Shown: in pieces, positions 12,438-57,303 of the stretch
How the letters are laid out: each line of letters opens with the position of its first letter
Position numbering within the stretch: position 1 is the first letter of the stretch
Assembly (NCBI RefSeq): GCF_004118375.1
Contig: NZ_SDHX01000001.1
Span: 2,235,693-2,299,692 of the forward strand
DNA length: 64,000 nt
From: Oleiharenicola lentus
GTDB taxonomy: Bacteria; Verrucomicrobiota; Verrucomicrobiia; Opitutales; Opitutaceae
Direction: 5' to 3'
Program-made: the position numbers and the translations under genes
The notes under the pieces: model-generated
What the model saw: only the letters and a program-made list of their open reading frames with translations
Told to the model about the DNA's origin: nothing
The model's database searches: none

Positions 12438-14116
12438 AGGTTCCTCCTCTTGAGCTCATTGACGGCGTGGGCGGCGGCACGGGCGGTGAGGGCCATGTAG
12501 GTGAGCGAAGGGTTCACGCAGTTGCCGGAGGTCATGCCGGCGCCGTCGGTCACATAGACGTTGGGTGCGTCCCAGACTTGGCTGTGGGCATTGAGCACGG
12601 AGGTCTTGGGATCGCGGCCCATGCGGGCCGTGCCCATCTCGTGGATGCCGCGGCCGAAGTTGTAGCCGGCGCTGGTCTTGATGACTTTCTTCAGGCCGGC
12701 GGCTTCGAGCATCTCGGCGGCGTCGTCCTGCATGTCGCGGCGCATCTTCAGTTCGTTCTCCTTGATCTCGCAGTCCATCGCGAGGACGGGCAGGCCCCAC
12801 TTGTCTTTTTTCGCGCGGTCGAGAGTGATGCGGTTTTCATGGTAGGGCAGGATCTCGCCGAAGCCGGTCATGCCCATGACCCACGGGCCGGGCTGGCTGA
12901 GCGCTTCCTTGAGCGGGGCGCCGATGCCGAGTTCGGGCACCTCGCGTTCCCAGCCGAGGCGAGAGGCTGCGCCTTGGTAGCCGAAGCCGCGCAGGTAATC
13001 GCGTTTGTCGCCAAACAGATTCCGGTAGCGCGGAATGTAGAAACCGCCGGGGCGACGGCCGGCGACGATCCGGTCGAGGTAGCCCTCGACCTGGCCAAAG
13101 GCACCGACGCGGAAGTGGTGGTCCATGGCGTTGTGGCCGAGTTCGCCACTGCTGCTGCCAAGGCCCTCCGGCCAGATGTCGGTGGCCGAGTTCATCAGCA
13201 CCCAGGTCGAGTTGAATGCGGAGGCGCAGAGGAAGACGATCTTCGCCTGGTAGTCGTAAGTCTGGTGCGTCTCGGCGTCGATGACCTCGACGCCGGTGGC
13301 GCGCTTCGCGTCCTTGTCGTAAAGCACGCGCGTGACGATCGAGCCGGGGCGCAGGGTGAGATTGCCCGTGGCCACGGCGACCGGGAGCGTGGACGACTGC
13401 GTACTGAAGTAGGCGCCGAAGGGGCAGCCGAGCCAGCATTTGTCGCGAAACTGGCAGTTGACGCGCCCCGCGTGTGGCTGGCTGAGGTTGGCGAGCCGGC
13501 CCATGATCAGGCGGCGGTGGCCGCCGAACTGGCTGCGCAGGCGGGCCGCGACATCCTTCTCCACGCAGTTCAGCTCGAAGGGCGGCAGGAATTTGCCGTC
13601 GGGGAGCTGGGGCAGGCCCTCGATCGAGCCGCTGATTCCGGCGAAGCTTTCGACGTGGTCATACCACGGCGCGAGGTCGGCGTAGCGGATGGGCCAGTCC
13701 ACGCCGTGTCCGTCCTTGGCGTTGGCCTCGAAGTCGAAATCGCTCCACCGGTAGCTGTGACGGCCCCAGAGCAGGGAACGTCCGCCGACCTGGTAGCCAC
13801 GGAACCAGTCGAAGGGTTTCACCTCCGTGTAGGGGCAGTCCTGCTCGTCGGCCCACCACTCGGCGTTGGCCTCGTGGAGCAGGTCGCGGTTAGAAATCGG
13901 GCGTTCGGCGATCAGTTCGCGGGACTTTTTCCCGCGATGCGGCAGCTCCCACGGTGCCTTGAGCGCGCTGGGGTAGCCGGTGATGTGTTCGACGTTTGGG
14001 CCGCGCTCAAGGAGCAGGACCTTCAGGCCTTTTTCAGTGAGTTCCTTCGCCGCCCAGCCGCCGGAAATACCGGAGCCGACGACGATGGCGTCATACGAGT
14101 GCGTGGAAACGGACAT
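12434..14116 (-). CDS. GMC family oxidoreductase (FAD sugar dehydrogenase large subunit)
   Basis: A 560-residue FAD flavoprotein. The N-terminal dinucleotide motif is VVGSGISGGWAAKEL; a central CQFRDKCWLGCPFG segment is Cys-rich; the C-terminus has the GMC signature region with GRGIHEMGTARMG and GNCVNPSLTYMALT carrying the His and Asn typical of the active site. There is no own signal peptide, fitting piggy-back export with the Tat-tagged small subunit encoded downstream. The ATG at 14116 precedes MSVSTHSYDAIVV; an upstream extension lacks conserved sequence. Together with the neighbouring Gfo/Idh/MocA genes it suggests keto-sugar chemistry. Confidence 0.92.
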   Translation of the reverse strand: MSVSTHSYDAIVVGSGISGGWAAKELTEKGLKVLLLERGPNVEHITGYPSALKAPWELPHRGKKSRELIAERPISNRDLLHEANAEWWADEQDCPYTEVKPFDWFRGYQVGGRSLLWGRHSYRWSDFDFEANAKDGHGVDWPIRYADLAPWYDHVESFAGISGSIEGLPQLPDGKFLPPFELNCVEKDVAARLRSQFGGHRRLIMGRLANLSQPHAGRVNCQFRDKCWLGCPFGAYFSTQSSTLPVAVATGNLTLRPGSIVTRVLYDKDAKRATGVEVIDAETHQTYDYQAKIVFLCASAFNSTWVLMNSATDIWPEGLGSSSGELGHNAMDHHFRVGAFGQVEGYLDRIVAGRRPGGFYIPRYRNLFGDKRDYLRGFGYQGAASRLGWEREVPELGIGAPLKEALSQPGPWVMGMTGFGEILPYHENRITLDRAKKDKWGLPVLAMDCEIKENELKMRRDMQDDAAEMLEAAGLKKVIKTSAGYNFGRGIHEMGTARMGRDPKTSVLNAHSQVWDAPNVYVTDGAGMTSGNCVNPSLTYMALTARAAAHAVNELKRRNL

Positions 14117-45715: not shown

Positions 45716-47044
45716 TTGCCCGTGTTCGACTTCCTGCGTTCCGAAGATTCCAAACTGCGGCGCAGTGCCGCCCAGTGGTTGGAGATGGCCCAGCGGATCC
45801 ATGATTTCCGCAAGGATCTGCTGACGGAAGAACAGGGCGGGGGACTGCTGGCGGCGATGGCGGAGGTTAAAGCGCTGGTGAGGCAAAAGGCCGCCGTGCC
45901 GGCGCTGAAACCCGCCATCGAACGTCTCGAAGGAGCGATGCGGACCTGTGGCGGACGGCTTTATCCGACCACCTCCCTGACCGAAAACGTCGAATTTTTC
46001 CTGGTCGCGGCGATCGTGATCCTCGGGCTGCGTGCGTATTTTGTTCAACCGTTCAAGATCCCGACCAATTCCATGTGGCCCAGCTACTATGGCATGACTT
46101 CGGAAGTGTTCACCCCCGGCGAGGAGCCGGGGCTGCTTGGCAAGGCGGCGCGCCTGGTTGGCTTGGGTGCCGTGAACTATACCATGAAGGCACCGGCCGC
46201 AGGTGAAGTCATGGTGCCGGTATTCCGCAGCGGCGCACCGGCCTACACGGAGCGAGCGGGACGGAGCCTCTTCATTTTTCCCACGTTGATGCGCGAATAC
46301 ACGGTTATGGTAGGCGGACAGCCGGTGAAGCTGACGGTGCCGGCCGACTGGGCCCGTTCCGAATTCGGCTACGATGACGTGTTGGAGAAAACGCTGTTTG
46401 CCGGAAACCGTAACGGTCTGATGCAGGCGGCCCAAAAGGCCAACGGTGCCAGCCAGCTGGAGTCGTCCATGATGGAAGTGACCAGCGGCGGCCGGCGGAT
46501 AGAAGCGCGCATTTACTGGGTTCCCACGGGGCGCAAGGTGCGACAGGGCGAAGATATTGTGTCTTTCGACATCCTGACGGGCGATTTGTTGTTCGTGGAC
46601 CGGATGAGTTATAACTTTGTCCGTCCGTCGGTTGGTTCCGGCTTTGTATTCAAAACGGACAACATCGATCACGAGAGCATGAAGGACGCGAATGGCCGTC
46701 AAATCAGCCAGTATTATGTGAAGCGACTTGTAGGCCTTCCCGGAGATCAATTGGAGATTCGGGAACCGGTTCTATATCGCAACGGCGAGCCTATCACGGG
46801 GTCCGAGGCCTTTGCGCACAACGCCAGGCGCGAGGGACTTTATCGCGGCTACTTCAATGGATCCAGTCACCTGGAGGGCGGCGAAGTGCTCGACGTTCCT
46901 GCGGGTTCATATTTCGCCATGGGCGACAATTCCTCAAACAGTGCGGACAGCCGCGTTTGGGGCTTCGTACCGGAAATGGACGTCGTGGGGCGTCCGTTGT
47001 TTATCTACTATCCACTGACCAAGCGTTGGGGCGTGGCTAAGTAG
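45716..47044 (+). CDS. lepB: Signal peptidase I with large internal insertion
   Basis: LepB cleaves Sec signal peptides at the membrane. A transmembrane helix (FFLVAAIVILGLRAYFV) precedes the catalytic Ser119 in PFKIPTNSMWPSYYG, and Lys336 lies in YYVKRLVGLPGDQ; MGDNSSNSADSR is box E. The Ser-Lys distance is about 217 residues, against about 55 in E. coli, so an insertion of roughly 160 residues separates boxes B and D. There is also an N-terminal cytoplasmic extension of about 90 residues. The start is non-ATG: TTG 45716 or GTG 45722. Confidence 0.93.
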   Translation: MPVFDFLRSEDSKLRRSAAQWLEMAQRIHDFRKDLLTEEQGGGLLAAMAEVKALVRQKAAVPALKPAIERLEGAMRTCGGRLYPTTSLTENVEFFLVAAIVILGLRAYFVQPFKIPTNSMWPSYYGMTSEVFTPGEEPGLLGKAARLVGLGAVNYTMKAPAAGEVMVPVFRSGAPAYTERAGRSLFIFPTLMREYTVMVGGQPVKLTVPADWARSEFGYDDVLEKTLFAGNRNGLMQAAQKANGASQLESSMMEVTSGGRRIEARIYWVPTGRKVRQGEDIVSFDILTGDLLFVDRMSYNFVRPSVGSGFVFKTDNIDHESMKDANGRQISQYYVKRLVGLPGDQLEIREPVLYRNGEPITGSEAFAHNARREGLYRGYFNGSSHLEGGEVLDVPAGSYFAMGDNSSNSADSRVWGFVPEMDVVGRPLFIYYPLTKRWGVAK

Positions 47045-47203
47045 AATTAAGTTGGATGGATGCACGAGGCTCTGAGCAGACCTATTTACTAGCACAATAT
47101 AGAATAAGTTCTGCAATATCGGCGGCAGATTGGGATAGGCCGACCATTACACAGGCTTAGTTTGTCTCTCTTATTGTCTGAACGGGAAGGAAAAGGAAAA
47201 TAT

Positions 47204-47407
47204 ATGCAACCGTTAGCGACAATTAAGGTGAAGGTGAGCTCACGGGTTAGTCGTGATGCTATGACGCCCCTTGTTCAGTTAGCCCGTAGCCAGGGAATGA
47301 AACCGGGGCCTTTCTTGGCTCACGTTGCTGAATCTATCGCACGCTGTCCTAGTGACAAATTCCACGCAGCTATGGCGGAATTTCTTCGTGAAGCCTCGAA
47401 GCGGTAG
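47204..47407 (+). CDS. Small ribbon-helix-helix-like protein (orphan)
   Basis: A 67-residue protein. A short strand (ATIKVKVSSRVS) followed by two helices (AMTPLVQLARSQGM and PGPFLAHVAESIAR) fits a ribbon-helix-helix DNA-binding fold, judged by pattern only. The ATG at 47204 has a purine-rich GGAAGGAAAAGG upstream, a good ribosome-binding site. Codon use (many T-ending codons) and lower GC differ from the host. It lies 14 bases before the next orphan gene, so the two form an operon. A regulator or antitoxin-like role is only inference. Confidence 0.6.
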   Translation: MQPLATIKVKVSSRVSRDAMTPLVQLARSQGMKPGPFLAHVAESIARCPSDKFHAAMAEFLREASKR

Positions 47408-47421
47408 CCTAGTCTCTTGCT

Positions 47422-48225
47422 GTGAAACCTGCTAAGGTTAGGGCGAAGGCAAAAGACCTGCTTAAGGTATCTGACGGCGTTGTCCTAGGCGCCGCATCAA
47501 CTTCTGTCGTTCATACTGTTAGGCGCTCCATCCAGTCTCTCATTCCGGGTGATTTTTACTGGTGGATGGAGATTGATAGCGAGATCGGCGTATCCGTCCA
47601 TTGGGTTTGGCTTGGTCACTCCGCCGTCAGTCGTGTCGGCGGAGTTTCTGACTTTAACGTGGATATCCTTTTGGAGCTGCTTCGCGGTGTGAACTGGTTT
47701 GTTCAACGCCATGATGCTATTGAGTCGGTAGAAGGTTATGAGCAGGCTGCCCTCAAAGCTGCGCAGGAGAAGCGTAGGAATCGCGCTATTGGCCGTTCTG
47801 GGGGGAAGTTGAAGGAGGTTCGTATTCCAGAGCCTCCGCCTCTCAGTATCGAGGGCAAGAAGCTGGTTCATCGGGTAGGGGTGGCGCGTGCGGGCTATTT
47901 GGCTGCTGTGGATGAAGCGAACCGGAAGCAAATGTCTGCTGCTGCCGCTAAACCAAAGCCTCCGGAATTTCGCGCCTACAAGGCGAATAAATCCGTTCCC
48001 TGCTTTGGTCTCACTGGCTCCAAGGGCACTATCATTGCCGCTTGGATTTGGAGCACCTTTCACGAGAAGGAAGAGATGATGGATAAGCTTTGTGCTGATC
48101 CCGCTGGGACCTATACGCATTTGACGGTTTACGGACTCGTATTTGATGAGCCGGACAGGTGGAGAGAGGCATGGGAATCGACTCGCTCGTTAAGGCGTCT
48201 AGCTGCCGAGATTCCGCCTTCGTAG
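47422..48225 (+). CDS. Orphan 267-residue protein of unknown family
   Basis: I do not recognise this protein. Visible features: an aromatic N-terminal part (FYWWMEIDSEIGVSVHWVWL), a basic, charged middle (QEKRRNRAIGRSGGKLKEVR), a Pro-rich stretch, and a C-terminal segment CFGLTGSKGTIIAAWIWSTF followed by charged helices. No signal peptide or membrane helix. Start is GTG 47422 without obvious Shine-Dalgarno, suggesting translational coupling to the preceding gene. T-ending codons are far commoner than in neighbours, indicating horizontal origin. It is followed by a 660-base non-coding, hairpin-dense stretch. Confidence 0.6.
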   Translation: MKPAKVRAKAKDLLKVSDGVVLGAASTSVVHTVRRSIQSLIPGDFYWWMEIDSEIGVSVHWVWLGHSAVSRVGGVSDFNVDILLELLRGVNWFVQRHDAIESVEGYEQAALKAAQEKRRNRAIGRSGGKLKEVRIPEPPPLSIEGKKLVHRVGVARAGYLAAVDEANRKQMSAAAAKPKPPEFRAYKANKSVPCFGLTGSKGTIIAAWIWSTFHEKEEMMDKLCADPAGTYTHLTVYGLVFDEPDRWREAWESTRSLRRLAAEIPPS

Positions 48226-48284
48226 GCAGAGCCTGTCGATTTGTGGAAAAACCCCTCAATCGTTCGTGTGCCCATCCCGGCAGA

Positions 48285-48511
48285 CATCGCCGCATATGGG
48301 CATTAGGGATTGCCCGGCCCGCGACCCCAACGGGTCGAGGGCAATCCCGGCCGACACTGACCAAACTCGCGCCGTCGCGTCGGGGCCTATCTGGGATAGG
48401 TTGTGGGAATGCGGGCCGCGAAGCGGTCCGCATTCCCTAACCTTGTTATTATTGGGACAACTGTCCCCTAAAGCATGTGTCGGCCGGGCCTGAGTAGGCG
48501 GCGTAGCCGCC
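48285..48511. ncRNA. Candidate structured RNA or ssDNA-type origin region
   Basis: Seen: GGGATTGCCC/GGGCAATCCC (48306-48315 with 48339-48348) enclosing GACCC/GGGTC; a 12-bp perfect pair CCCGGCCGACAC (48346-48357) with GTGTCGGCCGGG (48477-48488) that brackets CCTATC-TGG-GATAGG, a 15-bp stem (48405-48419 with 48423-48437, one G-T pair, GAA loop) and GGGAC/GTCCC; then GGCGGC-GTA-GCCGCC (48497-48511). This density is far above the surroundings. Whether it acts as RNA or as a replication/packaging-type DNA signal cannot be told; strand is unknown. Confidence 0.5.
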
Positions 48512-48840
48512 CTTGGTATTCGTCCCATATCCTAAACTTTTACCTCAATTCTCTGATCAGGTGCCTCACAGGTCGGTTGACTGAGGCGGGGGTTACAGAT
48601 AACAGATACCTGCTCGGTTGACTCAGTGGCATTTCAAACCGGATGGGAGGAAAATTGGAAATATGCCTTGCCTAGAGCTAAAACATGCACAATATAGGTT
48701 ATGTCTAATATACATAATGCTGATTTTCTGTGCATTACCCTTTTGGTAACCCCAAGCAGTTGCCTGCCATCTACGGCTGAGCATCGAGTTCGCTAAGAAT
48801 TTCCTACCAGAACCCCGCCTCAAACTTGATGGCGGTTCCT

Positions 48841-48873
48841 GGCCAACTCGCATGCTGATTCTGCGAGTTGGCC
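48841..48873 (-). terminator. Possible terminator hairpin of the NHL gene
   Basis: A perfect 12-bp stem GGCCAACTCGCA/TGCGAGTTGGCC sits 15 bases past the NHL gene's stop in its transcription direction. There is no T-run, so termination strength is uncertain. Confidence 0.5.
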
Positions 48874-48887
48874 TGACCCGGCAGTGC

Positions 48888-51800
48888 TCAAGAGCGCTTC
48901 GCTTTCTGAAAGCGGCGGAGCGCCCACATGCTGCTGAGCGCGGCGACGAACCAGAGACTTGGGGCACCACCACCGCCACCACCGCCGGATGAACCGCCAT
49001 CGGTTCCGCCGCCGGAAGTGGTTTCAGTTGTCAGTTTCACGGTGGATACGGTTACCCCGCTGGTCCCTACTCCGATGGCCCGCAAGATCGAGTTGCCGCT
49101 GTCGGTGAGGATAATCAGGCTGCTGCCCGCAATGAGGCCCTTCGGCTGGTTGAACAACGCCTGTTCGGCCGGGCCGCTGCGCTTGCCGGAAATACCGGCA
49201 ATGCCGGCCACGGTGATGACACTTCCGGTAGGAACGGCGCGGCGGATGCAACTGTTGCCCGTATCCGCGACATAGAGGACGCCGTTGCTGGAATCAACCG
49301 CCACACCCTGCGGGAGGTTAAACAAGGCATATTCGCCGATGCCGTCGTAGATGCCGCTGATTCCGGGCGAGCCGGCGATGGTGCTCACCAACCCGGAAAC
49401 CGTGGAGGCGGTGCTGGTCGGTGCCGGCGTGATGCCGGTGCAGGTTCCGTTGTCCAGTGATAGGTTGGCCACGCTGGAGTCATCCACTCCCGAAAGATAC
49501 GTGAGCGTGATGAGTGCCCCGCTCGAGCTAGCCGTATAACGCGCCGCCAATGTCGTATTACCGTTCAATGCGGTCACCACTTTCGCCGCCCAGGTGGCGG
49601 GTTCATCGGTGGCGGCCACCGGCACGTTCAGGGTGATCGGACTGTTGGTCAACGCCGAGTCCGTGACGACCACCAGGGCGTTGCCCGCGGTGCCGATGGT
49701 TCCGGCCGCTGTGGCTGAAACCGTGCGGCGTGCGGTGTTGATGCGGCGGAGCGTGTGATTGTAGGTATCGGCGATGAACAGCGAGGAAAAGCTGTCGTGC
49801 GCGAGGCCGGTGGGATTGTTGAATCGTGCGGCGGTGCGGTGGCCGTCGGCATCGCCCGTTACGCGGGCGGCACCCGCATAGGTGCTCACCACCGCTCCAC
49901 TGGTGATCTTGCGGATGGTGGCGCTCGCGGCATCCGATACATAAAGGTCGCCCAAAGAGGCGTCGTAGGCGATGCCCGTCGGCATGCTGAAGAGCGCGGC
50001 CGTGCCCGTGCCGTCGGTCGTCCCACTCGATCCGGCCGTCCCCGCAAACGTGGTCACGCTACCGGAGGTGGTGACCTTGCGGATCGTGGAATTGCCGGTG
50101 TCGGTTACGTAGAGGTTGCCGGCGTTGTCATAGGCAATGCCGGTGGGGCTGTTGAACCGCGCGGCCTCTCCCGTGCCATCCGTCGTGCCCGAGGTGCCGC
50201 TGCGTCCGGCCAGGACTGAAACAATGCCTGTGGAACTGACTCGCCTGATGCAGTGATTGGCGGTGTCGCAGACGTAATAATTGCCCAGCGCATCCACCGT
50301 GATTCCGTTCGGCTGCAGCAAATGGCCCGAGCCGACACTGCTGTCGTCGATACCACCACCGCTGCCATCGTTGCCGCTCCCACCGCCCCCGCCCCCGCCG
50401 CCCCCGCCACCGCTGTTGCCGGGCGCAAAGCCCTTGCGGATGGTGTGATTGCGGTTGTCGGCGATGTAGAGATTTCCGGTGCTATCCACCGCGAGGCCGC
50501 TGGGATAGTTGAACCGTGCTGTGGAGCCGGCCCCGTCAACCGAGCCGACGCTGCCAGCCTGGCCACCGATGGTCGTGACGGCTCCGGACGGTGATATTTT
50601 GCGCACGGTGCTGCTGTTGGTGTCAGCCACGTAAACATTGCCGTTGGCGTCCACCGCCACCCCGCTCGGGCCGCTGAAGCGGGCGCTGCTGCCAGTCGCA
50701 TCCGTGGAACCGGGCACACCCAAGGAGCCGGCGAGGGTCGTGACGGCTCCGCCGGGCGCAATGCGTCGCACCACATGGTTGCCGGTGTCCGCCACATAGA
50801 GGTTGCCGGCGGTGTCGATGGCCAGGTCACGCGGATAGTTGAAGCGGGCGCTGCTACCTGAGCCGTCCATGGCGCCGGAGAGTCCTTCCGAGCCGGCATA
50901 GGTTGAGACCACACCCGCAGCGGAAATCTGCCGAATGACATGGTTGCCATAGTCGGCCACGTAAACGTTGCCGGCGGCATCCACCGCCACCCCGCTCGGG
51001 TAGTTGAACTTGGCGCTGTTGCGGTCCCCGTTGGTGGTTCCGGAAGTCAGGGCGACGCCTGCATAGGAAGAGACCTCGCCAGCGGGAGTGATACGGCGCA
51101 CGAGATGATTGGCGGAGTCGGCGACAAAGAGATTTCCTGCGCTGTCGAAGGCCAGACCGGCGGGGCTGTAGAAAGACGCCGCGTTGCCTGTGCCGTTGCT
51201 GAAACCACGCAGTCCGGCGGTGCTGCCCGCGAAAAGCATGGTGACTCCATCCGGGGTGATTTTCCGGACCGCATGATTGCCGGAGTCGGAAACATAAATA
51301 TTGCCGGCAGAATCGACGGCGGTGTCGGCCGGGTTGCGGAACAAGACGGGGTCGAGCAGGAAGCCGGAGCCGTTTTGCAGGCCAGCCAAGCCGCCCGAGC
51401 CGGCCAGCGTCGTCACGACGCCGGCGGAGGTTACTTTGCGAATCAGCTGATTCCGATAGTCGGCGACATAAATGTTGCCCGAGGAGTCAACTGCGACGCC
51501 CGTCGGCCGGTCGAAGCGCGCGGCACTGCCGCTCCCATCCACCCGCCCGGCCACACCCGCGGAGCCGGCCAGCGTCGTCACGACGCCTGCGGACGTCACC
51601 TTGCGGATGGTCGAGTTGAGCTGGTCGGCAACATAGACGTTGCCACCGGTATCGACCGCCAGGGAGTTGGGAAAATTGAACCGGGCGGCGGCGCCGGTGC
51701 CATCCGTGCCTCCAAAGGTGTTGGGCGCGCCGGCCAGGGTTGTGACGGTGCCATCGGTCGCGATCCGGCGAATCATGTTGTTGCCCGTGTCGGCGACATA

Positions 51801-52556
51801 AATAATGCCCGCGCTGTCCACCGCGATACCTCGCGGATTGAAGAACCGGGCGGCGGCCCCCAGTCCGTTGGCGTTGCCGGCCGATCCGGCGGTGCCGGCC
51901 ACAGTTGTGACTACGCCGGCGGGTGTGATCTTTCGAATCACATGGCTCCCAGAGTCGGCGACATAGAGATTGCCCGCGGTGTCCACGGCCAGTCCGCTGG
52001 GATTCTGGAAGCGGGCCGCACTCCCCGTGCCATCAGCCGTGCCGGCGGTGGCCGCGGTGCCCGCGAGTGTGGTCACGGTGCCGCTGGCGGTGATCTTGCG
52101 AATCGTGTGGCCGGCGTAATCGGACACGTAAAGGTTGCCGGCGCTGTCCACCACCGTGCCTTGAGGCAGGTTAAACGTGACATTCGGATCGGTGGTGCTG
52201 CCGTCATTGCCCCCCACCCGACCGGCGGTGCCGACGAATGTGGTTACGACCCCGGCTTGAGTCACCTTCCGGATCAGGGAGTTGGCCGAATCAGCCACAT
52301 AAATGTCACCGGCCGGATTCACAGCCACGCTGATGGGAAAATTGAAGATGGGCACCAGCTGATTGCCTCCGCTGCCGTTCAGGTTGCCGCCCTTGCCGGC
52401 CACACCGGCGAAGGTGCTGTAGGTGTAATCCTGGGCCAGGGCTGAGCCAAGCAGGCCGCCAAGCCCCACCAGAAAAGTCACCCGCCGGAGCGAGCGGGCC
52501 AGAAGCGAATGCAAGCGGGTGGAACGGTTACGGGGGGCAAGCCTTGTGTTGATCAT
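48888..52556 (-). CDS. Giant exported NHL-repeat protein with Gly-rich C-terminal sorting tail
   Basis: A 1222-residue surface or extracellular protein. A signal-type segment (VTFLVGLGGLLGSALA) precedes about 17 NHL repeats of roughly 55 residues, each like GNLYVADSGSHVIRKIT with a following TTLAGTAG, which should fold as one or more beta-propellers. A run of 11 glycines lies near residue 720, a non-NHL domain (ALVVVTDSALTNSPITLNVP) interrupts the repeats late, and the tail reads GGGGGGGAPSLWFVAALSS then a RR-containing basic end, like GlyGly-CTERM sorting signals. Start ATG 52556 (MINTRLAP) or 52601. Ligand unknown. Confidence 0.9.
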   Translation of the reverse strand: MINTRLAPRNRSTRLHSLLARSLRRVTFLVGLGGLLGSALAQDYTYSTFAGVAGKGGNLNGSGGNQLVPIFNFPISVAVNPAGDIYVADSANSLIRKVTQAGVVTTFVGTAGRVGGNDGSTTDPNVTFNLPQGTVVDSAGNLYVSDYAGHTIRKITASGTVTTLAGTAATAGTADGTGSAARFQNPSGLAVDTAGNLYVADSGSHVIRKITPAGVVTTVAGTAGSAGNANGLGAAARFFNPRGIAVDSAGIIYVADTGNNMIRRIATDGTVTTLAGAPNTFGGTDGTGAAARFNFPNSLAVDTGGNVYVADQLNSTIRKVTSAGVVTTLAGSAGVAGRVDGSGSAARFDRPTGVAVDSSGNIYVADYRNQLIRKVTSAGVVTTLAGSGGLAGLQNGSGFLLDPVLFRNPADTAVDSAGNIYVSDSGNHAVRKITPDGVTMLFAGSTAGLRGFSNGTGNAASFYSPAGLAFDSAGNLFVADSANHLVRRITPAGEVSSYAGVALTSGTTNGDRNSAKFNYPSGVAVDAAGNVYVADYGNHVIRQISAAGVVSTYAGSEGLSGAMDGSGSSARFNYPRDLAIDTAGNLYVADTGNHVVRRIAPGGAVTTLAGSLGVPGSTDATGSSARFSGPSGVAVDANGNVYVADTNSSTVRKISPSGAVTTIGGQAGSVGSVDGAGSTARFNYPSGLAVDSTGNLYIADNRNHTIRKGFAPGNSGGGGGGGGGGGSGNDGSGGGIDDSSVGSGHLLQPNGITVDALGNYYVCDTANHCIRRVSSTGIVSVLAGRSGTSGTTDGTGEAARFNSPTGIAYDNAGNLYVTDTGNSTIRKVTTSGSVTTFAGTAGSSGTTDGTGTAALFSMPTGIAYDASLGDLYVSDAASATIRKITSGAVVSTYAGAARVTGDADGHRTAARFNNPTGLAHDSFSSLFIADTYNHTLRRINTARRTVSATAAGTIGTAGNALVVVTDSALTNSPITLNVPVAATDEPATWAAKVVTALNGNTTLAARYTASSSGALITLTYLSGVDDSSVANLSLDNGTCTGITPAPTSTASTVSGLVSTIAGSPGISGIYDGIGEYALFNLPQGVAVDSSNGVLYVADTGNSCIRRAVPTGSVITVAGIAGISGKRSGPAEQALFNQPKGLIAGSSLIILTDSGNSILRAIGVGTSGVTVSTVKLTTETTSGGGTDGGSSGGGGGGGAPSLWFVAALSSMWALRRFQKAKRS

Positions 52557-52665
52557 GTGCAAGTTGGTTTTGGTAAGCGACAAAAGCGGCCGGTTCCACA
52601 CTTTTCGTGAGAACTTTCAGTCCTGACTTGAGGTCTCGTTTCAGGCGCAGGACACAGGATAATTT

Positions 52666-55851: not shown

Positions 55852-57303
55852 TCAGGTGTGGGCGGGCTCGGTCGTGCGTTTCTTCGCGGCGATGAATTTG
55901 TCCACCTGGTTGGCGACGATCACGCCATAGTTGATGGTGCCGAGCCAGCCCGACATGATGATACCGACCGAGCCGGCGTGGTAGAGGCCGGGCAGCTGGT
56001 TGGGCAGATCCATCGAGACCTTGAGGCCTTCGAACTTGGTGCCGAACGACGTGCCGTTCCAATGGTGCGTGTAATACTCGATCGTGCGCGGCGTGGCGGC
56101 CTCCATCCAGTCGATCTTGGCGCGCACGTCGGGGATGAACTTCTCAAGCGAAGCGATGGACTCGTCGATCAGACGTTGCTTGTGCTTGGCGTAATCCTCC
56201 TCGCTCAGGCTCTTCCAGTCTTCGTAGCGGCCGTTGATGGACACGACGACCGTGTAGCGGTCGCTGCCCGGACGGGTGTCCGGGTAATACATCGAGAAGG
56301 TGCGGCTCGTCGTGTGCAGGTCCACGAGCTTCTCGCTGGAGAACTTCGGCTCGTCGGAGGTAAACACGAGGTCGCCGATGTGCGGCAGTGTCTCGCCCTT
56401 CTTGATTCCGAGATAGACCTGACAGGAGCTGCTGTTAACCCGCACAGCTTTGGTCTGGGCCACGAATTCCTGACTGAAGTTCTCCTCGCCGCCGAGGCGC
56501 AGGACCGTGTTCTTGATGTTGGAATTCGAGACCACCGCGTCGCAGCGGATGGTGCGGCCGTTGGCGACAACGCCGGTCACCACTTTGCGGCCGTCGCGTT
56601 CCTCGGTCAGGATTTTCTCCACGAGCACGTGCTTGCGCAGCTCGGCGCCGTTCTTCTTCAGCTCGGCGGCCATCTTCTTCACCAGCACGTCGGTGCCGCC
56701 TTGGAAGGTATAGACGCCCTTGCTCATGAAGTTGGAGAACACGATGCCGAAGGTGATCGCCGGATCGTCCATCGTGGAGCCGTTGGCATAGGCGATGGGC
56801 TCCATAAGCAGGCGCTTCACGTCGTCGCGACCCGGGAAATAGCGCTCGAACATCTGCCCCGTGGTCTCGGGGTTGTTGTCGTAGAAATTCATCGCCCGCA
56901 GGTCGGTGAAGAACCGCTCCACCGTCTCGGCCGGGACCTGGAATTTCTCGACCATCTGCCGGGTGAAATCCTCGCGGTCGAAGGTCGTGTTGACCTCAAA
57001 CTGCGGGTTGATGAACCGCACGCCCTTGAGCTGCACAATCGAGTCGGCGATGTCCTGGCCCCAGTATTTGCGACAGGACTTGATCATCCCGATCGGAAAA
57101 CCGTGCAGGGAGATGTCGAAGATGTGACCGCCCTTGCGGGTGAACCAGGTGGCCAGGCCGCCGAGCTGGTAGTGATGCTCCAGCAGCAGCACCTTGTGCC
57201 CGCACTTTGCGAGGACGTTGGCGGAGGTCAGTCCGCCGAGTCCGCTGCCAATGACCACCACGTCGTAGTGATCCTCGATGCCTTTGAGCCAGTCGTAAGC
57301 CAT
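55852..57303 (-). CDS. CrtI-type FAD oxidoreductase (phytoene-desaturase-like), first copy
   Basis: A 483-residue FAD enzyme. The dinucleotide motif [20 protein letters not shown] and the adjoining [15 protein letters not shown] are those of phytoene desaturase/carotenoid isomerase-like proteins; the C-terminal FAD segment is [17 protein letters not shown]. No crtB or other carotenoid gene is present, so an acyl or polyene chain is a likelier substrate. The ATG at 57303 lies directly after a terminator hairpin of the upstream gene, leaving no obvious Shine-Dalgarno site. Confidence 0.85.

Follow-up and report, generated by a model that had tools for sequence, protein, structure and literature searches.

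A strongly folded non-coding region in a probable 1.6-kb Xer-exploiting element at dif of Oleiharenicola lentus, a candidate satellite of single-stranded DNA phages

The structured non-coding region at positions 48285-48511 of the 64,000-nucleotide stretch of Oleiharenicola lentus DNA analysed here (the window) can best be read, with moderate confidence, as the cis-acting non-coding half of an IMEX (integrative mobile element exploiting Xer) with a length of 1,595 bp, and this element would be a satellite or miniphage of a single-stranded DNA (ssDNA) phage, most likely an inovirus. The element lies at dif, the site of bacterial chromosome untangling. That these 1,595 bp represent an insertion at the chromosomal dif site is strongly supported by the sequences of the window and of related genomes, and the ends and gene content make the element a probable IMEX. 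The fuller picture, in which a regulator, an orphan protein and a folded origin or packaging domain make up an ssDNA-phage satellite of about 1.6 kb that depends on the host XerCD and a helper phage in Verrucomicrobiota, is put forward more tentatively. The relevant features are the following.

45716-47044, plus strand: lepB-like signal peptidase I gene, recognised by eye from its conserved motifs; context, outside the element
47087-47114, plus strand: left attachment site with XerC arm TACTAGCACAA, core TATAGA and degenerate XerD arm ATAAGTTCTGC
47092-48686, plus strand: inserted element of 1,595 bp, from GCACAATATAG to the next GCACAATATAG
47204-47407, plus strand: ORF of 67 aa, first gene to follow the left end; by eye its product resembles ribbon-helix-helix proteins and is probably a small DNA-binding regulator
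47422-48225, plus strand: orphan ORF of 267 aa with a GTG start, residues ~28-109 of which are weakly related to two mobile-looking loci
48268-48303, plus strand: hairpin TGCCCAT..ATGGGCA at the upstream edge of the structured region, from the minimum-energy fold
48285-48511, no strand assigned: structured non-coding region, candidate ssDNA origin or packaging region
48346-48488, no strand assigned: domain closed by the perfect 12-bp inverted repeat 48346-48357/48477-48488
48405-48437, no strand assigned: 15-bp hairpin with a 3-nt loop, with G.T on the plus strand and A.C on the minus strand
48497-48511, no strand assigned: hairpin GGCGGC-GTA-GCCGCC with a T-rich tail, possible terminator
48682-48709, plus strand: right attachment site, a complete dif with XerC arm AACATGCACAA, core TATAGG and XerD arm TTATGTCTAAT
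48888-52601, minus strand: NHL-repeat-like gene, recognised by eye, on the far flank of the element

The original prediction had drawn attention to a 12-bp inverted repeat, a 15-bp stem and six or more stems within this region, and all of these could be located. The inverted repeat is present and perfect, the 15-bp stem (48405-48419/48423-48437) is 93% complementary with a single odd G.T pair, and the minimum-energy fold of 48260-48540 contains at least six stems, some of them short. No more than 4 perfect stems, each taken at its maximal length, reach at least 8 bp in the region, and since a 10-bp stem (48306-48315/48339-48348) shares 3 bases with the 12-bp stem, full formation of both at once is impossible. 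The stability of the fold is exceptional, with z-scores of -6.80 (RNA, plus strand), -6.72 (RNA, minus strand) and -6.65 (DNA, plus strand), each based on 200 dinucleotide shuffles of which none was as stable. Likewise, the same number of long perfect stems was reached in only 3 of 500 shuffles, and an arm of at least 12 bp in none of them. When the window was scanned in 426 tiles of 227 bases with 20 shuffles each, the tile at 48301 had both the lowest z-score (-6.36) and the lowest energy, with the tile at 57301 a close runner-up by z-score (-6.23). Other tiles with low z-scores lie around 57301, 18001, 59551 and 35401 (z-scores of -6.2, -5.8, -5.3 and -4.8). The ORFs treated as genes stop at 48225, and the mechanically called ORFs that overlap 48285-48511 are without any support. 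Terminator-like hairpins were no more frequent than in shuffled sequences (1 found versus 1.6 expected), so that the hairpin at 48497-48511 is by itself no evidence for a terminator. Beyond the element, an inverted repeat (48841-48873) of two perfectly matching 12-bp arms around a 9-nt spacer lies by the end of the NHL-type gene and is perhaps its terminator.

The element consists of the two ORFs and the structured region, all enclosed by two dif-type attachment sites. The GCACAA of the left site lies 48 bp past the lepB stop codon, at the spacing observed for dif in relatives. The XerC arm plus core at 47092 and at 48687 are identical in 11 of 12 bases, the last core base being different, and the 64-kb window contains two copies of the 11-mer GCACAATATAG, where a first-order Markov model predicts 0.001 occurrences. 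In the genome itself, the dif pattern is matched at the right end and nowhere else. Across the genus, this pattern (up to 3 mismatches) was matched in 7 of 21 genomes, our own included; of 150 family genomes, 94 contained a match to a looser pattern (up to 2 mismatches), in most cases a single one, and the reversed control pattern was matched in 1. The G+C content of the element (53.4%) is below that of the window (63.4%), and the GC3 values of its two ORFs (0.49 and 0.54) are below that of lepB (0.71). Neither ORF matches a recombinase or integrase family in Pfam, PHROGs, NCBIfam or PADLOC. The sequence features of an IMEX, namely location at dif, a XerC arm and core at both ends and no integrase of its own, are thus found together in this element, which is known from one genome only.

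An empty counterpart of this site exists in the metagenome-assembled contig JAUPWC010000438.1, which has the highest LepB identity (90%) among the contigs matched. Here lepB is followed by a single dif 60 bp on and by the same NHL-type gene, with no element in between. The dif core reads TAAAGA on this contig and TATAGA in genome G003. The empty site and the lepB-dif spacing in relatives together indicate that the window genome has gained 1,595 bp at dif. With regard to this spacing, the gap between lepB and dif is 38-68 bp in eight loci of the genus, and the ninth locus, L024, holds another element at this position. For a wider view, 85 dif loci were fetched (86 minus L130, which has no strict dif); these are a non-random sample that includes the genus loci, the dif-positive genomes left out of the 94 being six with lepB near dif, some with dif at a contig edge and some that were simply omitted. 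With a lepB call that required the alignment to reach the C-terminal end, 26 of the 85 loci proved to contain lepB, and in 21 of the 85 dif follows it after 16-188 bp. Among 30 dif loci viewed, 24 showed no lepB within the 1.5 kb available. Conversely, in 24 of 65 lepB loci from named contigs dif lies at most 120 bp after lepB; several of these 65 have nearly no sequence past lepB, and some contigs are common to the 65-locus and 85-locus sets. In G012, lepB was sought for the other half of a dif element and none was found, which is uninformative. Two further loci, L218 and L225, carry left-end-type sites at 16 and 45 bp past lepB, with a XerC arm and core and no XerD arm, which suggests that additional elements of at least 10 kb lie at dif there. 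A separate observation concerns a 102-kb contig of G065 with two dif-like sites 51 kb apart (G065:C2:21207-21227 and 72422-72442; L132 and L133), which is perhaps a plasmid with paired Xer sites.

Relatives carry phages at the same site. The 85 loci were scanned for a repeat of the XerC arm plus core up to ~8 kb upstream of dif, a range that misses longer-reaching elements. Exact 12/12 repeats were found in five of them, the XerD arm of the lepB-side copy being divergent in every case, and they delimit elements of 7.05 kb (L067), 6.99 kb (L079), 7.95 kb (L101), 5.95 kb (L120) and 4.52 kb (L086). L123 and L127, with 11/12 repeats, were not counted; the genes of L127 do not look phage-like by eye. 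The L067 element encodes a Zot protein (PF05707, E-value of 9.6e-10) and a G2P-type Rep (PF23343, 7.8e-12). L079 matches the Zot of L067, L101 matches both its Zot and its Rep, and the DNA of L120 matches that of L101 over the Zot gene. The 4.5-kb element of L086, in genome G521, encodes a microvirus-type major head protein (E-value of 2.7e-202) and a pilot protein, and is called a microvirus from these protein types. In genome G083, where the ends have the same structure (12/12 repeat, XerD arm divergent in the lepB-side copy), a 7.9-kb inovirus-like element and a 16.3-kb phage-like element lie in tandem (C1, ~2096.4-2120.6 kb; L155 and L156). The smaller one is related to L067 in DNA, and the larger one encodes an ATPase that matches the packaging family phrog_2666 (E-value of 5.7e-5). 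Elements of 14-16 kb occur at dif in G083 and G550, and the window element is the smallest seen at this dif. At the lepB-dif junction of these Opitutaceae-type genomes, inoviruses, a microvirus, larger phage-like elements and the window element all dock, and this means that helper-satellite pairs can be searched for there with only a lepB gene and the dif pattern. Strong folds that are at least partly intergenic are also present in the inoviruses at dif (z-scores of -6.9 for L067 and -4.5 for L120, with 30 shuffles each).

In organization, the dif inoviruses share with the window element a short gene immediately inside the lepB-side end. Such a gene comes first in all five inovirus-like dif elements, namely L067 (92 aa), L101 (77 aa), L120 (71 aa), L079 (80 aa) and G083 (with an in-frame stop codon), and also in G584. 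In G584, a left-end-type site is located at 14102 of the reversed stretch (L157) with a relative of the 67-aa protein 148 bp inside, the element being cut by the contig end, the gene consisting partly of N and no lepB being found. The 67-aa protein itself has no match in Pfam, PDB, PADLOC or NCBIfam, and in PHROGs it matches one family of unknown function (E-value of 0.047). Its predicted model (pLDDT of 70.5) has three helices and an undefined N-terminus, which is compatible with a ribbon-helix-helix protein and is not proof of one. Compared with the first genes of L101 and L120, it matches at 32% over 63-66 residues with E-values of 6e-7 and 6e-6, values that are flattered because the search set comprised five sequences. 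In this five-sequence comparison the first gene of L067 gave no pairwise match to the 67-aa protein; that of L079 was compared only with the L067 gene (E-value of 8.9e-5). When the 67-aa protein was searched alone against 189 genomes, L101 ranked sixth and L120 last of 21 non-self matches (E-values of 0.023 and 0.093), and among 28,876 reading frames an unrelated regulator was best (0.0043), followed by L101 (0.0051) and L120 (0.015). A four-row profile, which included the window protein, matched 7 of 250 family genomes; outside its own rows these were G083 (3.7e-14), G584 (2.6e-13) and G639 (4.0e-5), the last being the same unrelated regulator. By pairwise or profile comparison, the first genes of L101, L120, G083 and G584 are thus weakly related to the 67-aa protein. 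Kinship is likely in view of their common position; the similarity alone is not proof of it.

The product of the second ORF, the 267-aa protein, has no match in Pfam, PHROGs, PDB, PADLOC or NCBIfam, its predicted model is poor (mean pLDDT of 37.7), and no homologue was found in viral contigs, genome contigs or plasmids. Relatives were found in 3 of 189 genomes, our own included. Residues 28-109 match proteins of G179 (L020) and G127 (L021) with E-values of 2e-4 and 4e-4 per genome, and in the reading-frame set the matches between the 267-aa protein and these two were reciprocal at 4e-5 to 3e-4, with L020 and L021 matching each other at ~0.04. A match of L028 to the middle of the protein scores alike (2.2e-4). 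The kinship with L020 and L021 is weak, and both relatives lie in mobile-looking surroundings. The neighbour of the L020 relative is a P-loop ATPase that matches the packaging family phrog_2666 (E-value of 7.4e-8); since it also comes close to the cut-off of Pfam nSTAND3 (27.0 of 27.2 bits), its packaging role is uncertain. By eye, the neighbours of the L021 relative are a Rep-like protein with an HUH-type motif, a small regulator and a tyrosine recombinase; the Rep-like gene has no Rep family match. Two broader searches yielded candidates that were rejected. The best match among 193 Vibrio phage records (E-value of 0.2) was taken as chance. In 387 genomes of the phylum, 7 matched including our own, and the six others, which fall in the middle of the protein (~residues 84-199), run across stop codons in four cases and have a best E-value of 7.4e-5, were taken as compositional.

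These observations can be joined in a model in which the host XerC/XerD would excise the element from dif as a circle. A rolling-circle Rep supplied in trans by the helper, most likely a filamentous phage, would copy this circle from an origin in the structured region. The resulting single strand would fold at 48285-48511 to provide a start for the complementary strand and a packaging signal, and would be exported in virions made by the helper. In this model the 67-aa protein would be the repressor of the element, and the 267-aa protein, as its single larger gene product, might be a replication or helper-interference factor. As in a known satellite, the element lacks recognised morphogenesis genes and has an attachment site in common with phages, and the 67-aa gene may also be shared with them, judging by weak similarity and by position. 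The element has two ORFs only: no Zot/pI ATPase or Rep of the kind that would make it an inovirus was recognised in it, nor was a capsid or other structural gene, an origin motif or a packaging motif. Replication and packaging are therefore inferred. Speaking against a satellite are the facts that a Zot search of the genome revealed no filamentous helper, that the two G2P-type Rep genes of the genome belong to other elements, that the similarity of the 67-aa protein is weak, that no homologue of the fold was found in 250 family genomes beyond four short matches taken as chance, that the two cores differ by one base and that the element is known from one genome. The original prediction had suggested that the region and two orphan genes might be the functional core of a small undescribed element, and had likened the layout to the origin or packaging region of ssDNA elements. 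Both ideas gain from the dif-type sites that flank the region and both genes, from the empty site in a relative and from the ssDNA phages found there in relatives; an origin or packaging function is retained here as a candidate role.

The same layout could also be left by decay. The dif inoviruses L101 and L120 have their short first gene and their cargo genes on the plus strand, near lepB, and their phage block on the opposite strand toward dif. Because of this arrangement, a dif filamentous prophage that had lost its Rep-capsid-Zot block and kept its left end, the regulator, a single cargo gene, part of the intergenic region and dif would be a dead remnant with about the layout of the window element. 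A search for Zot in the genome itself gave nothing above the cut-off (best E-value of 5.36), so that no resident filamentous helper was found, as would suit such a remnant. However, both ORFs are open, both attachment sites are in place, and no convincing relative of the 267-aa protein was found in the dif inoviruses examined. A working miniphage would look alike, so that the difference is mainly one of activity. We regard a dead deletion derivative as unlikely, yet as the strongest competitor of the satellite.

A satellite might alternatively depend on a different helper, which could be a microvirus or could belong to the phage-like elements of 14-16 kb, with all else remaining the same; the confidence in this reading therefore overlaps with that in an inovirus satellite, from which it differs in the helper alone. 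Both the microvirus of L086 and the larger elements of G083 and G550 occupy dif, and the ATPases near the L020 relative and in the 16.3-kb element of G083 match the same packaging family. Moreover, a weak minus-strand frame inside the left end of the latter element matches the 67-aa profile with an E-value of 0.064. The clear relatives of the 67-aa protein, however, are the first genes of inovirus elements, and the borderline nSTAND3 score weakens the argument from the L020 ATPase. A helper other than an inovirus thus seems rather improbable.

Still less probable is an autonomous mini-element in which the 267-aa protein would be a new replication initiator acting on the structured region, with only the host Xer proteins being needed. 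It is the only larger gene, and the N-terminal part of its product is weakly related to proteins encoded near a Rep-like gene (L021) and next to the gene of a P-loop ATPase (L020). Against this, none of five libraries gave a Rep family match for the protein, no HUH motif was seen in it by eye, and its L021 relative adjoins a separate Rep-like gene, itself without a Rep family match.

To return to the satellite reading, an origin-like role of the folded region finds a parallel in a different structured DNA of the same family. The genome encodes two G2P-type Rep proteins of ~430 aa in two related integrated elements with integrase-like genes, the latter recognised by eye (G000:C1 ~941-946 kb, L147, and 1000-1006 kb, L148). 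A three-hairpin module is located at the 5' ends of these two rep genes (L147:8240-8335, minus strand; L148:8444-8539, minus strand), in the non-coding part of L024, a further dif element of the genus (L024:532-626, plus strand), and in the dif inovirus L079 (L079:8578-8673, plus strand). Seven further loci (L232, L233 and L236-L240) contain it as well. It occupies the 5' end of a G2P-type rep gene in L231, L252 and L240, and also in L232, which is cut by the contig end. In four sequences, 11 of 26 pairs changed on both sides; in eleven sequences this was the case for 15 of 26 pairs, with 38 such cells versus a shuffled mean of 10.0, in an alignment that was fitted to the structure and of which four loci had built the model. 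The covariance model identified the module in 21 of 252 family genomes at an E-value of 0.01, with values no higher than 2e-5 in ten of these genomes, and Rfam gave no match for the four loci searched. The module is possibly a rolling-circle origin or a regulatory element of rep. The window region was considered as a member and rejected: its best scores were 7.3 bits (E-value of 0.16) and 9.2 bits (0.067) with one hairpin only, and whole-model alignment of its minus strand gave 5.6 and 5.0 bits, which is not significant. Both are stretches of DNA with several hairpins that belong to mobile elements of this family, and two of the elements with the module lie in this genome, but the window region does not match the module, which may thus back an origin-like role by analogy only.

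Sequence homologues of the fold were sought as well. Among 250 family genomes, with two candidates scored per genome, 5 matched at an E-value of 0.01 including our own, and the four non-self matches were short and taken as chance. Two of them (L227 and L229) represent one common sequence that by eye is coding DNA with a short-chain dehydrogenase motif; the other two span 35 and 25 bp. No homologue was found in phages, plasmids gave one match at an E-value of 0.4, and when the region was compared under relaxed settings to 12 other elements, the matches were 11-15 bases long. At gathering score, Rfam 15 identified only a tRNA elsewhere in the window, and at an E-value of 5 there was nothing relevant, the best hit near the region reaching 17 bits where 268 are needed. 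The original prediction had likened the layout to a structured non-coding RNA; a structured RNA or riboregulator of the element or the host would agree with the very stable RNA fold and with the slight excess of G-U pairs on the plus strand (5 versus 2), but it is very improbable given that there is no relevant Rfam family, that the opposite strand folds as strongly, that no conserved copy was found and that promoter-like sites are at chance level (2 found versus 1.4 expected).

Should the element prove mobile, it would demonstrate how little DNA suffices to parasitise an ssDNA phage, and it would offer a compact system for studying what a folded single strand needs for copying, packaging and integration. 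Compared with the filamentous prophages at dif (L067, L079, L101, L120 and G083), it is alike in its site, its ends, the short and partly related first gene and the strong folds. It differs in that these prophages measure 6-8 kb and have Rep- or Zot-type genes, and matches between their DNA and the structured region are at chance level. Microviruses carry capsid and Rep genes, and RS1 carries a phage-type regulator and replication genes. The window element is unlike the dif microviruses and the phiCjT23-like phages in that those phages carry capsid and Rep genes. With RS1 it would have in common a small size, a satellite's link to the filamentous phages at dif and a regulator of phage type; unlike in RS1, no replication genes were recognised in it. 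Both the dif-integrated microviruses (PMC3091885) and the phiCjT23-like phages (PMC9719478) are presented as ssDNA phages using Xer/dif.

Among the open-licence matches listed, no title named a satellite or dif phage like this element in Verrucomicrobiota, and the dif-integrated satellites described in the sections consulted are from Vibrio (PMC4246890, PMC5357621). There, RS1 is introduced as a satellite of CTXphi, and TLCphi of Vibrio cholerae as a satellite IMEX located at dif, with which it agrees in its XerC arm and core but not in its XerD arm; TLCphi is without morphogenesis and structural genes, and an autonomous replication module is described for it (PMC4246890, PMC5357621). The replication module of such satellites has no recognised counterpart in the window element, in which no Rep was identified. 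On the basis of these descriptions, the element resembles TLCphi in its dif site, its degenerate XerD arm and its lack of recognised morphogenesis and structural genes; it is unlike TLCphi in measuring 1.6 kb, in having no recognised replication gene, in belonging to another phylum and in that its helper dependence is presumed. The IMEX sizes given in the same accounts are 7.5, 29.1 and 57 kb (PMC4246890, PMC5357621). If our reading is true, the O. lentus element would be far smaller than these IMEXs, and structured DNA would be its main functional part.
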